From a virus, in IMG/VR virus record IMGVR_UViG_3300027996_001047, positions 1 through 26,037 of that record: a stretch of 26,037 nt of DNA, one strand, 5' to 3'. Position 1 is the first letter of the stretch. Each line of letters opens with the position of its first letter. Positions 21,253-25,542 of this stretch are shown here, piece by piece. Position numbers and translations under genes: made by a program. The notes under the pieces were generated by a model, which did no database searches, had not been told where the DNA came from, and saw only the letters and a program-made list of their open reading frames with translations.

Positions 21253-21320
21253 TCAATCGCTTTTCCGCCGCTTCCATTATTAGGTACACAAAAACTGATG
21301 GAGACCGTGGGAAAAAGAAT

Positions 21321-21594
21321 TGGAGGCGGCGGAAGTCGAATCCGCGTGTTGTATAGGTTTCAAAATCAACAGTTTTTACATGTTTAGTGCCTAAGGCACG
21401 GTTCTTGCTGTTAGCGATAGTTCCCGAAGGATCTCTCTGTGATTGAGTGATGAGGCTCACAGAAGCCCCACAGCTTACGCTGCAAGTGCAAAAGAGTTTA
21501 CAGTTATCGTTTGGTGTGGTTTTTAGCTAGCCTCCACGCCACCTAGCACATGTTGTTGAAGTCTCCGTCTACCAATCAATTCCAGTACGCCCCC
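21321..21594 (-). ncRNA. ssrA: transfer-messenger RNA (tmRNA)
   Basis: A 274-nt phage tmRNA, short for the family (usually about 350 nt). The 5' end GGGGGCG pairs with CGCCTCC at the 3' end through seven pairs, with the G3.U70 wobble that alanyl-tRNA synthetase reads. A T arm with loop TTCGACT on a GCGGA/TCCGC stem precedes the 3' acceptor strand, and a D-like region GGAATTGATTGG follows the 5' strand. The tag reading frame ends in codons for SFALAA and TAA (21475-21477); GTA at 21499-21501 is the best resume codon, giving VNSFALAA. Downstream sequence folds into further hairpins. CCA is not encoded. It would rescue stalled ribosomes and mark the products for ClpXP-type proteases. Confidence 0.92.
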
Positions 21595-22048: not shown

Positions 22049-23806
22049 CTACTTGAATAGCTTAGTAAAGCTATCCTTTGTCAACTTATCCACAGAGAAG
22101 TCTAGGACTTCATCCTCTGGATCGATTTCAGTAACAACTTCCGCACCCAGTGTTTGTAGCAACAGTCCGAAGTCAAACACGCTCTTGTATTGTTCGTACA
22201 GAGCCTGCACTCCCAATGTGTTTCTACCTCCGACCCTTGCGTGACCAGCACCAAAGTTCAGAAGAACAAAAGACTGAGTATCGTTCGATTCAGGCAAAAA
22301 CATCCCAAGGATCATTTGCTTCTGAACCGCTTCAGTCCGTACTTCCATCGTAACCTTATTGGGGTCCATCAGGAACTTCTTGTCAACACTGTCTCCAGCA
22401 CCAACAATGATCTTGTATCCGGATGTATCAGACCCTGAGTATACGTTATTATGTACAAGCCAAGGCTGATTAGTCCCACTCTTACAGTGTAGGTATTCCA
22501 CAGCCCCGCTAGGAGCGTTAGTAATGTCCCCACTGTAAGTAAGTAACCCCGTAGAGTACCCAGCGTTCCAACCAATCTTTTCACCAGTAATAGCACTGGC
22601 AGAGAGGTCAAGGTCACGAGCACCCCAAGCATTTTCCCAGTAGATCCCAACGCATAGCTTTTCTCCGAAAAACTTGCTGCCCGTAGGAATATTCCCCACA
22701 AACATCTTTTCAGAGGTAGGCACAGCGTATGATACATCCTCTGGAAGGAAAACCTTAGTCCCTAACAGATTCCAACGCTTAGTAGCGTAGTCAGACAGGA
22801 AATTAAAGTTCTGCACCATGTCCAAGACCTTAGGTGCATTACCTTCCTTAACCCAACTCTTACCATTACGAATACGGTAATTGAATACAGTTTGACCCTG
22901 CATACGATTGAAAACCGCAGTCATAGCTTTGAACACAGCGAAGGGCGTAGCGTTGTCCAACCAGTGAAGGTCACAAGTAGTCAACACACGACTTGTCACT
23001 TCATTCAAAGCGTTCTGTGGAACAGGCTTATGACGAGTCTTAGACAGCTTTGAGATCTTATTGATGACAGCAGGGCATCGACCCTTGAATGCCAAAAACA
23101 GTGGCTTAAAGCGATTGAAGATGGTCGCCAGACGGTCCACTCCATGAGCACGGAACTGAACAGATGGGTTAAAAGACGATTCCTTGATAGCAGCAATAGC
23201 CTTGTCATTCTTGATCAACAGGGTTTCCCCAGTCGCACGGTAGATGACGTAACGGAAGAACTCCATTGTATCGTCAGGAATAACGCCATACGCATCAGCA
23301 ATCTTGATGATCGCTTCTTTGTTCTTAACGCCTTCCTTTCCGGTAAATGAGTAGTTCAATTCGTCATGTAGAATAGATAGCAAACTGTCAACGGTTTCTT
23401 CAGTCAGGGCGATACCTGAGCGAAGCATGTCCAAACAGCGTTCTGTCATTTCTTCCACGGTCAAACCACGAACAACCTTGAACGTCAACTTAACGTCAGG
23501 CACTTCCAGAACTTCGTCTGGGATGTACATTTCGTCTTCAAAGTTGCTACCGTAAGTAGATGCGTAGTGACGGATCTGCTCCATAGCAAGTTCAAAACGA
23601 GATGAGTTGCGTACCCTCGCGAAACTCTTATGGAAACCCTTGTTCAGGTCATTCCCGTCCAACTTGTTCTGACCATAGAACGCAACGATGCGATCCTTAG
23701 CCCAAGCAGCGTCTGGAGTAACAACAAACCCTTGGTCTGACACGAATGGGTCAACCGACTTGCTTGGCTTGGCTACAACAGCGTTAAACAATTCCAGAGT
23801 TTTCAT
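22049..23806 (-). CDS. 585-residue protein of unknown function linked to the RNA array
   Basis: The largest unassigned protein here. Residues ~35-345 are mostly helical, with conserved-looking blocks FHKSFARVRNSSRFELAMEQ, IRHYASTYG, EDEMYIPDEVLEVPD and NKISKLSKTRHKPVPQNALN. Residues ~365-520 are beta-rich; ARDLDLSASAITGEKIGW... followed by YSGDITNAPSGAVEYLH recalls the pattern of TerD-type domains (LDxS, then GD-x-T), a weak resemblance. I sense a family also present in bacterial chromosomes but cannot name it. GGAAGG precedes the ATG. The five RNA elements lie directly in its leader and more structured RNA follows it, so an RNA-binding role is the leading hypothesis. No TROVE or vWA signature can be pointed to. 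Confidence 0.7.
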   Translation of the reverse strand: MKTLELFNAVVAKPSKSVDPFVSDQGFVVTPDAAWAKDRIVAFYGQNKLDGNDLNKGFHKSFARVRNSSRFELAMEQIRHYASTYGSNFEDEMYIPDEVLEVPDVKLTFKVVRGLTVEEMTERCLDMLRSGIALTEETVDSLLSILHDELNYSFTGKEGVKNKEAIIKIADAYGVIPDDTMEFFRYVIYRATGETLLIKNDKAIAAIKESSFNPSVQFRAHGVDRLATIFNRFKPLFLAFKGRCPAVINKISKLSKTRHKPVPQNALNEVTSRVLTTCDLHWLDNATPFAVFKAMTAVFNRMQGQTVFNYRIRNGKSWVKEGNAPKVLDMVQNFNFLSDYATKRWNLLGTKVFLPEDVSYAVPTSEKMFVGNIPTGSKFFGEKLCVGIYWENAWGARDLDLSASAITGEKIGWNAGYSTGLLTYSGDITNAPSGAVEYLHCKSGTNQPWLVHNNVYSGSDTSGYKIIVGAGDSVDKKFLMDPNKVTMEVRTEAVQKQMILGMFLPESNDTQSFVLLNFGAGHARVGGRNTLGVQALYEQYKSVFDFGLLLQTLGAEVVTEIDPEDEVLDFSVDKLTKDSFTKLFK

Positions 23807-23827: not shown

Positions 23828-23913
23828 ATAAGTGGAGAGTAGATTTTTTGGAGCCGCCTTGCCACCGAAGTGGCCCTAGCGGCAGAGGTTTAATAGGAAC
23901 TCTCTATACCTAT
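23828..23913 (-). ncRNA. array RNA element A
   Basis: An 86-nt element on the minus strand. Terminal helix ATAGGT/ACTTAT, then ATAG opposite CC, a 4-bp helix AGAG/CTCT, then TTCCTAT opposite CTA. Inside is a long arm GCCGC...GCGGC capped by GCCAC TTCG GTGGC (a cUUCGg tetraloop, which fixes the RNA strand as minus). It ends 22 nt before the start codon of the 585-residue gene, so it is either a released small RNA or part of that gene's 5' leader. Confidence 0.7.
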
Positions 23914-23921
23914 GTTTTAAC

Positions 23922-23968
23922 TGGGCGAAGAGTAAGTTTCAATTTTTTATAGGAACTCTTTATGCCCA
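23922..23968 (-). ncRNA. array RNA element B (minimal hairpin)
   Basis: A 47-nt hairpin: TGGGC/GCCCA outer helix, ATAA opposite TC, AGAG/CTCT inner helix, then TTCCTATAAAAA and GAAACTTA closing the loop. It is nearly identical in its loop to element E, while both helices differ with compensation. Confidence 0.7.
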
Positions 23969-23982
23969 TGATTTGTATCACT

Positions 23983-24068
23983 GTGGTGGAAAGTATAGGA
24001 TTTGAACCTAAACCCCCGAAAGGGTTTACCATGCTACCGAAGTAGCGGATAGGAACTTTCTGTACCAC
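23983..24068 (-). ncRNA. array RNA element C, with T-loop-like arm
   Basis: An 86-nt element, same length as A. Terminal helix GTGGT/ACCAC, ACAG opposite CC, AAAG/CTTT, TTCCTAT opposite ATA. Inside are three arms: GCTAC TTCG GTAGC, a second arm TAAACCC/GGGTTTA, and TAGG TTCAAAT CCTA, whose loop is a canonical T-loop. The 3' strand could also be read as an acceptor ending ACCA, but D arm and variable-loop sizes do not fit a tRNA. A tRNA-like small RNA is the better description. Confidence 0.7.
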
Positions 24069-24071
24069 TAA

Positions 24072-24184
24072 TGCAAGCGGCAGGATTCGAACCTGCATCT
24101 AACAGTTTAAAATTTGTTAGGAACTTGATTTTAACCGTAGTTGACAAGTAACATCTGGTGCTCTGCCAATTGAGCTACGCTTGC
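24072..24184 (-). ncRNA. array RNA element D: tRNA body with the array motif in place of the anticodon arm
   Basis: A 113-nt RNA. Acceptor GCAAGCG/CGCTTGC, TA, D arm GCTC AATTGGCA GAGC and T arm GCAGG TTCGAAT CCTGC are all perfect for a tRNA. The ~62 nt between D and T arms replace the usual ~22 and contain the array motif in permuted order: TTA, CTTG, TC, AAC, tetraloop TACG, GTT, AAAAT, CAAG, TTCCTA. A flanking CTAACA/TGTTAG stem with an ATTTTAA loop could alternatively be a poor Lys(UUU) anticodon arm with a 10-nt loop. It may be a tRNA mimic rather than an amino-acid carrier. CCA is not encoded. Confidence 0.72.
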
Positions 24185-24241
24185 AAAAAAAAGACGAGGG
24201 GTAAGTTTCATAAATTGATTTTTATAGGAACCCCTGTTGTC
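24185..24241 (-). ncRNA. array RNA element E with its own U-tract
   Basis: Hairpin GAC/GTC, AACA opposite TC, GGGG/CCCC, then TTCCTATAAAAA ... GAAACTTA, followed by eight T that abut the 5' end of element D. The promoter's expected start falls at the first stem base (~24241), so promoter, hairpin and T tract can make a small RNA of about 55 nt, with read-through needed for the rest of the array. Confidence 0.7.
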
Positions 24242-24247
24242 TCATAT

Positions 24248-25067: not shown

Positions 25068-25295
25068 TTATTCGCTTTCTTCCCACTCGAAGTACCTATC
25101 CATAAACTTGTCATAGATATTTGCGTACTTAATGTCATCACAGATTAATCTGTATAATCTCTTAGGGAAGATCCTGAACCCGTCACGGTCAAAGATCTTC
25201 GTTGAATACTCCCAGCTTTTCTCTCCGTAGGACACCCGTATTTTACAGGCATTCTTTAAGAGGGTTACCGTGTATTCCTCTATATTACTCTTCAT
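25068..25295 (-). CDS. small hypothetical protein
   Basis: A 75-residue protein (MKSNIEEYTVTLLKNACKIR...), rich in aromatic and charged residues, with C-terminal YFEWEESE. GGGAA stands before this ATG; an in-frame upstream start lies inside the Pth2-like gene. It overlaps that gene by 11 nt. No family recognised. Confidence 0.68.
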   Translation of the reverse strand: MKSNIEEYTVTLLKNACKIRVSYGEKSWEYSTKIFDRDGFRIFPKRLYRLICDDIKYANIYDKFMDRYFEWEESE

Positions 25296-25542
25296 AGAAA
25301 ATTCCCAAAACCGTTTCAGTATTAGGGTCCACCTCGGTATACCCAAGATCAACCTGAACGTGATCCGCCGACTCCTTCATCATTTCAAAATTACTGTTAC
25401 TAGACTTGAGCACAATAATTTTGTCGGGAAGATCGAAGTTCTCATACTTCATAGCCATATTAGCTACACAATGGCCCACCTGAGCGGCCAGTTTGCCCTC
25501 AGACATTTTCAGGTTTCTACGATAATATACTTTGATGTTCAT
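25285..25542 (-). CDS. Pth2-like peptidyl-tRNA hydrolase, short form
   Basis: An 85-residue protein resembling the PTH2 family (usual core ~115 residues), which frees peptides from peptidyl-tRNA dropped by ribosomes. KVYYRRNLKMSEGKLAAQVGH matches the family N-terminus ('vvr.DLkM.kGK.aAQ.~HA', catalytic His included); KIIVLKSSNSNFEMM matches the central strand ('kivlkv.......l'); DLGYTEVDPNTETVLGI matches the C-terminal 'D.GrT.i.pgt.TvlgI'. The region between helix 1 and the central strand is shortened. GGGG is ~11 nt before the ATG. It lies among tRNA genes and near a tmRNA. Confidence 0.75.
   Translation of the reverse strand: MNIKVYYRRNLKMSEGKLAAQVGHCVANMAMKYENFDLPDKIIVLKSSNSNFEMMKESADHVQVDLGYTEVDPNTETVLGIFYEE

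Follow-up and report, generated by a model that had tools for sequence, protein, structure and literature searches.

A two-bulge RNA motif beside a TerD-fusion protein gene in phages and Bacteroidota: candidate Y-RNA-like partners in RNA repair

The RNA array and its neighbouring gene

The window analysed here is the whole of a 26,037-nt stretch, positions 1 to 26,037 of the IMG/VR virus record IMGVR_UViG_3300027996_001047. Its minus strand holds a tRNA/tmRNA region, and on the same strand, at 23828-24242, five copies of one RNA motif lie upstream of a gene for a 585-residue protein. Judged by this protein, the closest named relatives are the cyanophages S-CRM01 and S-CBWM1 and the gut phage Phass-1. 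The features are listed below.

22049..23806, minus strand: gene of the 585-residue protein, a putative RNA binder with an N-terminal helical and a C-terminal TerD-fold domain
22202..22684, minus strand: TerD-like domain (about residues 375-535), VIA-align Z 8.4-10.3 against 3ibz, 2qz7 and 2kxt
23830..23911, minus strand: element A, leader copy with the outer helix AGGU/ACUU; covariance model 37.9 bits
23923..23967, minus strand: element B, short hairpin copy; covariance model 52.5 bits
23984..24067, minus strand: element C, enclosing three hairpins, the last of them T-arm-like (UAGG-UUCAAAU-CCUA); covariance model 32.1 bits
24072..24184, minus strand: element D, tRNA-like RNA (acceptor, D and T arms) with the motif replacing the anticodon loop; Rfam tRNA 51.4 bits
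24120..24148, minus strand: motif core in D, circularly permuted, CUUG-UC-AAC[UACG]GUU-AAAAU-CAAG-UUCC
24192..24242, minus strand: element E, short hairpin GAC-AACA-GGGG-UUCC-UA ... UA-CCCC-UC-GUC; covariance model 54 bits

A tmRNA gene (21318-21594, minus strand) is located downstream of the 585-residue gene, and a small protein matching the peptidyl-tRNA hydrolase PTH2 is encoded within the tRNA array (25285-25542, minus strand).

Elements A, B, C and E consist of an outer helix, four A-rich nucleotides opposite YC, a 4-bp helix, a UUCC bulge and a UA/UA closure, and the motif encloses a loop. A strict motif scan of both window strands returned E, C, B and A as the sole matches with this closure. 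The initial annotation had described the inner part as TTCCTAT opposite TA; these elements are there, but they fit better as a UUCC bulge that leads into a U-A and then an A-U pair. It had also counted five tandem copies, and all five do lie on the minus strand; element D, however, is circularly permuted and sits inside a tRNA-like gene, and its arrangement is not the same. In D the tip AAC-UACG-GUU is on the outer-helix side, and the other side of the motif opens into the anticodon arm of the tRNA-like gene, with a 49-nt insert relative to the Rfam tRNA model. ARAGORN did not detect a tRNA-like gene at 24072-24184. That annotation noted neither the permutation and tRNA embedding of D nor the leader position of A; it also lacked the relatives on chromosomes, the neighbouring RtcB and RlaP genes and the resemblance to Y RNAs.

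The 585-residue protein was modelled with AlphaFold2 at a pLDDT of 87.7. Its C-terminal domain has the TerD fold in this model (aligned over 135-139 residues), and no TerD match by sequence was found in Pfam. Foldseek against the PDB gave no significant match for the full-length model or for the N-terminal 370 residues. VIA-align placed three Ro60 structures against the N-terminal domain at Z 3.2-3.4, amid many unrelated rows; in one of these weak rows a Ro60 chain aligned over 227 residues at 6.0 A. The likeness of the modelled N-terminal domain to the Ro60 fold is suggestive at best. TROVE homology by sequence was considered and rejected, as five profile comparisons (hhalign) each returned a probability of 0.2-0.5%; the Pfam scan of the window for TROVE (PF05731) had no match to the protein. 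There is no vWA domain in the 585 residues, the C-terminal fold being TerD instead. PADLOC and NCBIfam offered no name for the protein, though the literature on RNA-repair operons may already mention it.

A single-protein query returned no relatives of the protein, and an alignment query returned 38 loci. Chromosomal relatives in Bacteroidota share 53-59% identity with the window copy, and 80 loci of 167 were kept for the Bacteroidota set. In an even sample of 395 Bacteroidota genomes, 7 encoded the TerD-fusion protein and 28 a canonical TROVE protein, the two coexisting in 3 of the 7. An in-frame stop was seen in the TerD-fusion gene of loci L063 and L096 (at 6001).

Covariation and distribution of the motif

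Across 56 homologous short copies, 96.8% of paired cells were standard pairs, compared with 75% in shuffles and 33-49% in slid controls. Changes on both sides of a pair numbered 140 against 37 in shuffles and were found at 8 of 8 helix pairs, giving a covariation score of 0.71 (shuffles 0.25, slid controls at most 0.21). The loop positions A5, UUCC, U, A and C were invariant. The initial annotation had taken covarying helices around constant loops to indicate a selected RNA structure, and the both-side changes in these copies support it.

A covariance model was run on both sets of loci. It gave 95 matches in phage loci, each of them next to the gene and on its strand. The 80 Bacteroidota loci gave 229 matches, all upstream on the gene strand except for one marginal match (E 0.9), and copies were present upstream of the gene in every one of the 80. 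In nine whole genomes no copy was found outside the locus at comparable scores. A single-copy model match inside the membrane-protein gene of L168 was judged to be due to chance.

The motif is directly upstream of the gene, on the gene strand, in most phage loci; the named phages and about 30 IMG/VR loci have one to five copies at the corresponding place ahead of the homologous gene. In Phass-1, exceptionally, the element cluster is downstream of the gene, S-CRM01 has one copy downstream, and two loci (L036, L030) have copies 1-7 kb upstream. The pairing of motif and gene is conserved from the cyanophages S-CRM01 and S-CBWM1 and the gut phage Phass-1 through to Bacteroidota chromosomes. In Phass-1 a tmRNA directly follows the element cluster (L006 11461-11899). 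S-CRM01 is an isolated, cultivable cyanophage with six unannotated copies (L004 7515-7966, 9827-9876), including a permuted tRNA matching YrlA.

No Rfam 15 family matched the motif itself, and the earlier statement that it belongs to no named class stands. The suggestion that it is probably a protein-binding site also gains from these results: covarying helices, constant loops and close linkage to one protein gene are what the sequences offer in favour of a putative site of this kind.

tRNA-like modules, leader copies and the RNA-repair neighbourhood

A scan for composites found 63 with a complete tRNA body (acceptor, D and T arms) in which the motif replaces the anticodon loop, and their acceptor and T-stem pairs covary. 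A further form includes a T-arm, a short tetraloop-capped acceptor hairpin and a D-loop-like stretch that contains GG (e.g. L045 5770-5847). Arrays usually include a copy with a tRNA-like domain in normal or permuted order; many copies are without such a module, and most tRNA-like copies are unpermuted. At L101, upstream of 6001, one composite carries an extra T-loop insertion, which is unusual for a functional tRNA.

Several phage copies enclose the whole tRNA body in permuted order. Three permuted phage copies match Rfam YrlA (RF02553) at 33-36 bits (best 36.2), and the match of the S-CRM01 copy, whose permuted acceptor is closed by a UUCG loop, spans the full model. For comparison, the genuine YrlA that accompanies a TROVE gene in a Chitinophagales genome scored 34.4 bits to RF02553. 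The gathering score of 69 bits was reached by none of the copies; that the YrlA matches are limited to permuted copies and are all under this score counts against a Y-RNA-like reading.

The last copy before the gene differs from the others. Its outer helix is AGGU/ACUU, a sequence rare among the remaining copies, in 76 of the 80 Bacteroidota loci. The distance between this last copy and the start codon has a median of 19 nt and is 11-40 nt in 76 of the 80 loci. Copy A of the window has the AGGU/ACUU helix too and ends 23 nt before the start codon. The leader position and the distinct outer helix fit autoregulation by the protein, and we infer that the leader copy probably lets the protein regulate its own synthesis.

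In Bacteroidota the gene lies among RNA-repair genes. Of 67 full-length loci, 62 encode RtcB on the gene's strand no more than 6 kb away, and 51 encode RlaP; in phage loci RtcB was not seen and RlaP was found in three. A common operator was noted across TROVE loci L125-L149 and TerD-fusion loci L045-L124. A palindrome, T[AG]CGCA-N7-[TC]GCG[CT]A, is present ahead of rtcB in 48 of the 80 loci, at a typical distance of 43-56 nt, and ahead of the RNA array in 18 of the 80. Of 30 Bacteroidota TROVE loci, 17 have the identical palindrome ahead of the canonical TROVE gene. Shuffling 4000 upstream regions produced a single match. In 65 of 80 loci a gene for a WYL-domain regulator lies in the vicinity, close to rtcB. 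A known parallel of this setting is rsr-yrlBA-rtcBA of Salmonella (PMC7790460), and a Listeria phage has an Rsr-like gene with abundant nearby RNAs (PMC12282133). In two Chryseobacterium genomes a Flavo-1 RNA (RF01705) is located directly downstream of the canonical TROVE gene (L126 2494-2581; L127 2397-2472, minus strand), and Flavo-1 RNA may be connected with Ro60.

Interpretation and comparison with known systems

We consider it likely that the TerD-fusion protein binds the elements as Y-RNA-like RNAs of an RNA-repair particle, one of them a leader copy for autoregulation; binding and function are predicted. The RNA structure, its linkage to the gene, the tRNA-like modules, the repair neighbourhood and the common operator all emerged from computation. 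From them we infer direct binding and tethering, autoregulation, and a part in repairing or protecting tRNAs. The RNAs would carry a common two-bulge site (outer helix, A-rich/YC loop, 4-bp helix, UUCC bulge) for the protein encoded downstream, and the binding stem would hold the protein as in bacterial Y RNAs. Joined to this stem would be a variable module, either a plain loop, a miniature unit of T-arm, acceptor and D-loop, or an entire tRNA body in which the binding stem stands where the anticodon loop would be. Such a module may engage tRNA-handling enzymes, or an effector nuclease or ligase. The Bacteroidota particle would belong to the RtcB/RlaP RNA-repair regulon, with an operator in common with canonical Ro60 (TROVE) genes, phages would carry the pair of RNA and protein, and autoregulation would be the task of the last copy, which lies some 20 nt ahead of the start codon. 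Anticodon nucleases cut, and RtcB rejoins, at the position where the motif sits, which makes a predicted role in recognising or shielding broken tRNAs attractive.

Several other explanations were weighed against this reading. Dispersed DNA repeats or insertion sites lacking an RNA function, a possibility raised in the initial annotation, would account for copies in tandem, but this is practically ruled out by compensatory changes in both helices and by the single locus per genome. It is highly improbable that the motif is a small self-cleaving ribozyme processing the transcript between tRNAs: it is compact, has invariant loop nucleotides and is situated in tRNA arrays, but it matched no Rfam 15 ribozyme family, and a binding site better fits the linkage to one protein gene and the occurrence in tRNA bodies and permuted forms. 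The array could instead be only a cis-acting leader, a set of repeated 5' UTR sites through which the protein represses its own mRNA. Every copy is on the gene strand, and the position and distinct outer helix of the last copy in Bacteroidota would be expected. We regard this as unlikely, however, as it accounts neither for tRNA bodies whose acceptor, D and T arms are conserved nor for the permuted forms and the YrlA match; the downstream copy in S-CRM01, the downstream cluster in Phass-1 and the copies 1-7 kb upstream in L036 and L030 also speak against it.

The composites might also be real split or permuted tRNA genes, with a new type of tRNA intron that the adjacent protein or some other nuclease would cut, RtcB then joining the halves into functional tRNAs. 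The insertion is indeed located in the anticodon arm and RtcB is nearby. We searched 60 distinct composites for a junction restoring a canonical anticodon arm. Joining restored one in L057 and L063 (both Gln UUG) and L095 (CAU), and by inspection also in L085 and L119 (both CAU) and L040 (Asn GUU, with an encoded G73-CCA); the arm in the first five of these loci counts against a pure mimic, which would need none. For 43 of the 60, however, no junction yielded a canonical arm, and five composites are too short for any anticodon loop, which makes splicing of the composites less likely; several of the 17 that passed look accidental. The junction position varies between copies, most element copies contain no tRNA, and the permuted acceptor of S-CRM01 is sealed by UUCG. 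Functional tRNAs from such genes are quite unlikely. We hold it to be very unlikely that the composites are tRNA genes with a new anticodon-arm intron removed by the TerD-fusion particle, with RtcB rejoining, so that in bacteria and phages alike the tRNAs are spliced or deliberately broken and mended and the Y-RNA-like copies are relics or regulators.

Phages carry the RNA/protein pair, and one putative binding motif recurs in bare hairpins, small tRNA-like units, permuted tRNAs and full tRNA bodies. If the elements are Y-RNA-like RNAs of a repair particle, as we favour, ordinary laboratory bacteria would allow direct tests of whether Y RNAs originated from tRNAs and of how such particles relate to the RtcB repair of broken tRNAs.

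Among known systems, permuted and intron-containing tRNA genes with the BHB motif likewise have a 4-bp central helix between two bulges at the anticodon, but the bulge-like strands and their sizes both differ, and most copies here are without an anticodon loop. TerD domain proteins share the C-terminal fold, which is here fused to a 370-residue helical domain. YrlA consists of a basal stem with D, T and acceptor arms (PMC8394870). Like YrlA and the rsr-yrlBA-rtcBA system, the present RNAs have a stem with an internal loop, here putatively protein-binding, and are encoded beside a (putative) RNA-binding protein and RtcB. A tRNA-like module of D, T and acceptor arms in which the stem replaces the anticodon arm is shared as well (D of the window and 63 relatives), and permuted copies match the YrlA model. 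They differ from YrlA in that the partner is not TROVE by sequence and ends in a TerD fold, many copies are without the module and most tRNA-like copies are unpermuted. The stem motif with UUCC bulge and ANAN/YC was not found beside the three Bacteroidota TROVE loci tested. As with Ro60/Rsr, the gene stands beside Y-like RNAs, has the same operator in the Bacteroidota RNA-repair regulon and encodes a large helical N-terminal domain; in contrast to Ro60/Rsr, the protein matches no TROVE profile and has TerD instead of vWA. The RNAs are Y-RNA-like in their proposed way of working, yet with a partner that is not TROVE by sequence they fall outside the Y RNAs.

Ro60/Y-RNA particles are found in animals and bacteria and are linked to RNA quality control, stress and autoimmunity. 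The system described here, parallel to Ro60 in its repair neighbourhood and operator but built on another protein, looks like a second, unnamed counterpart of these particles.
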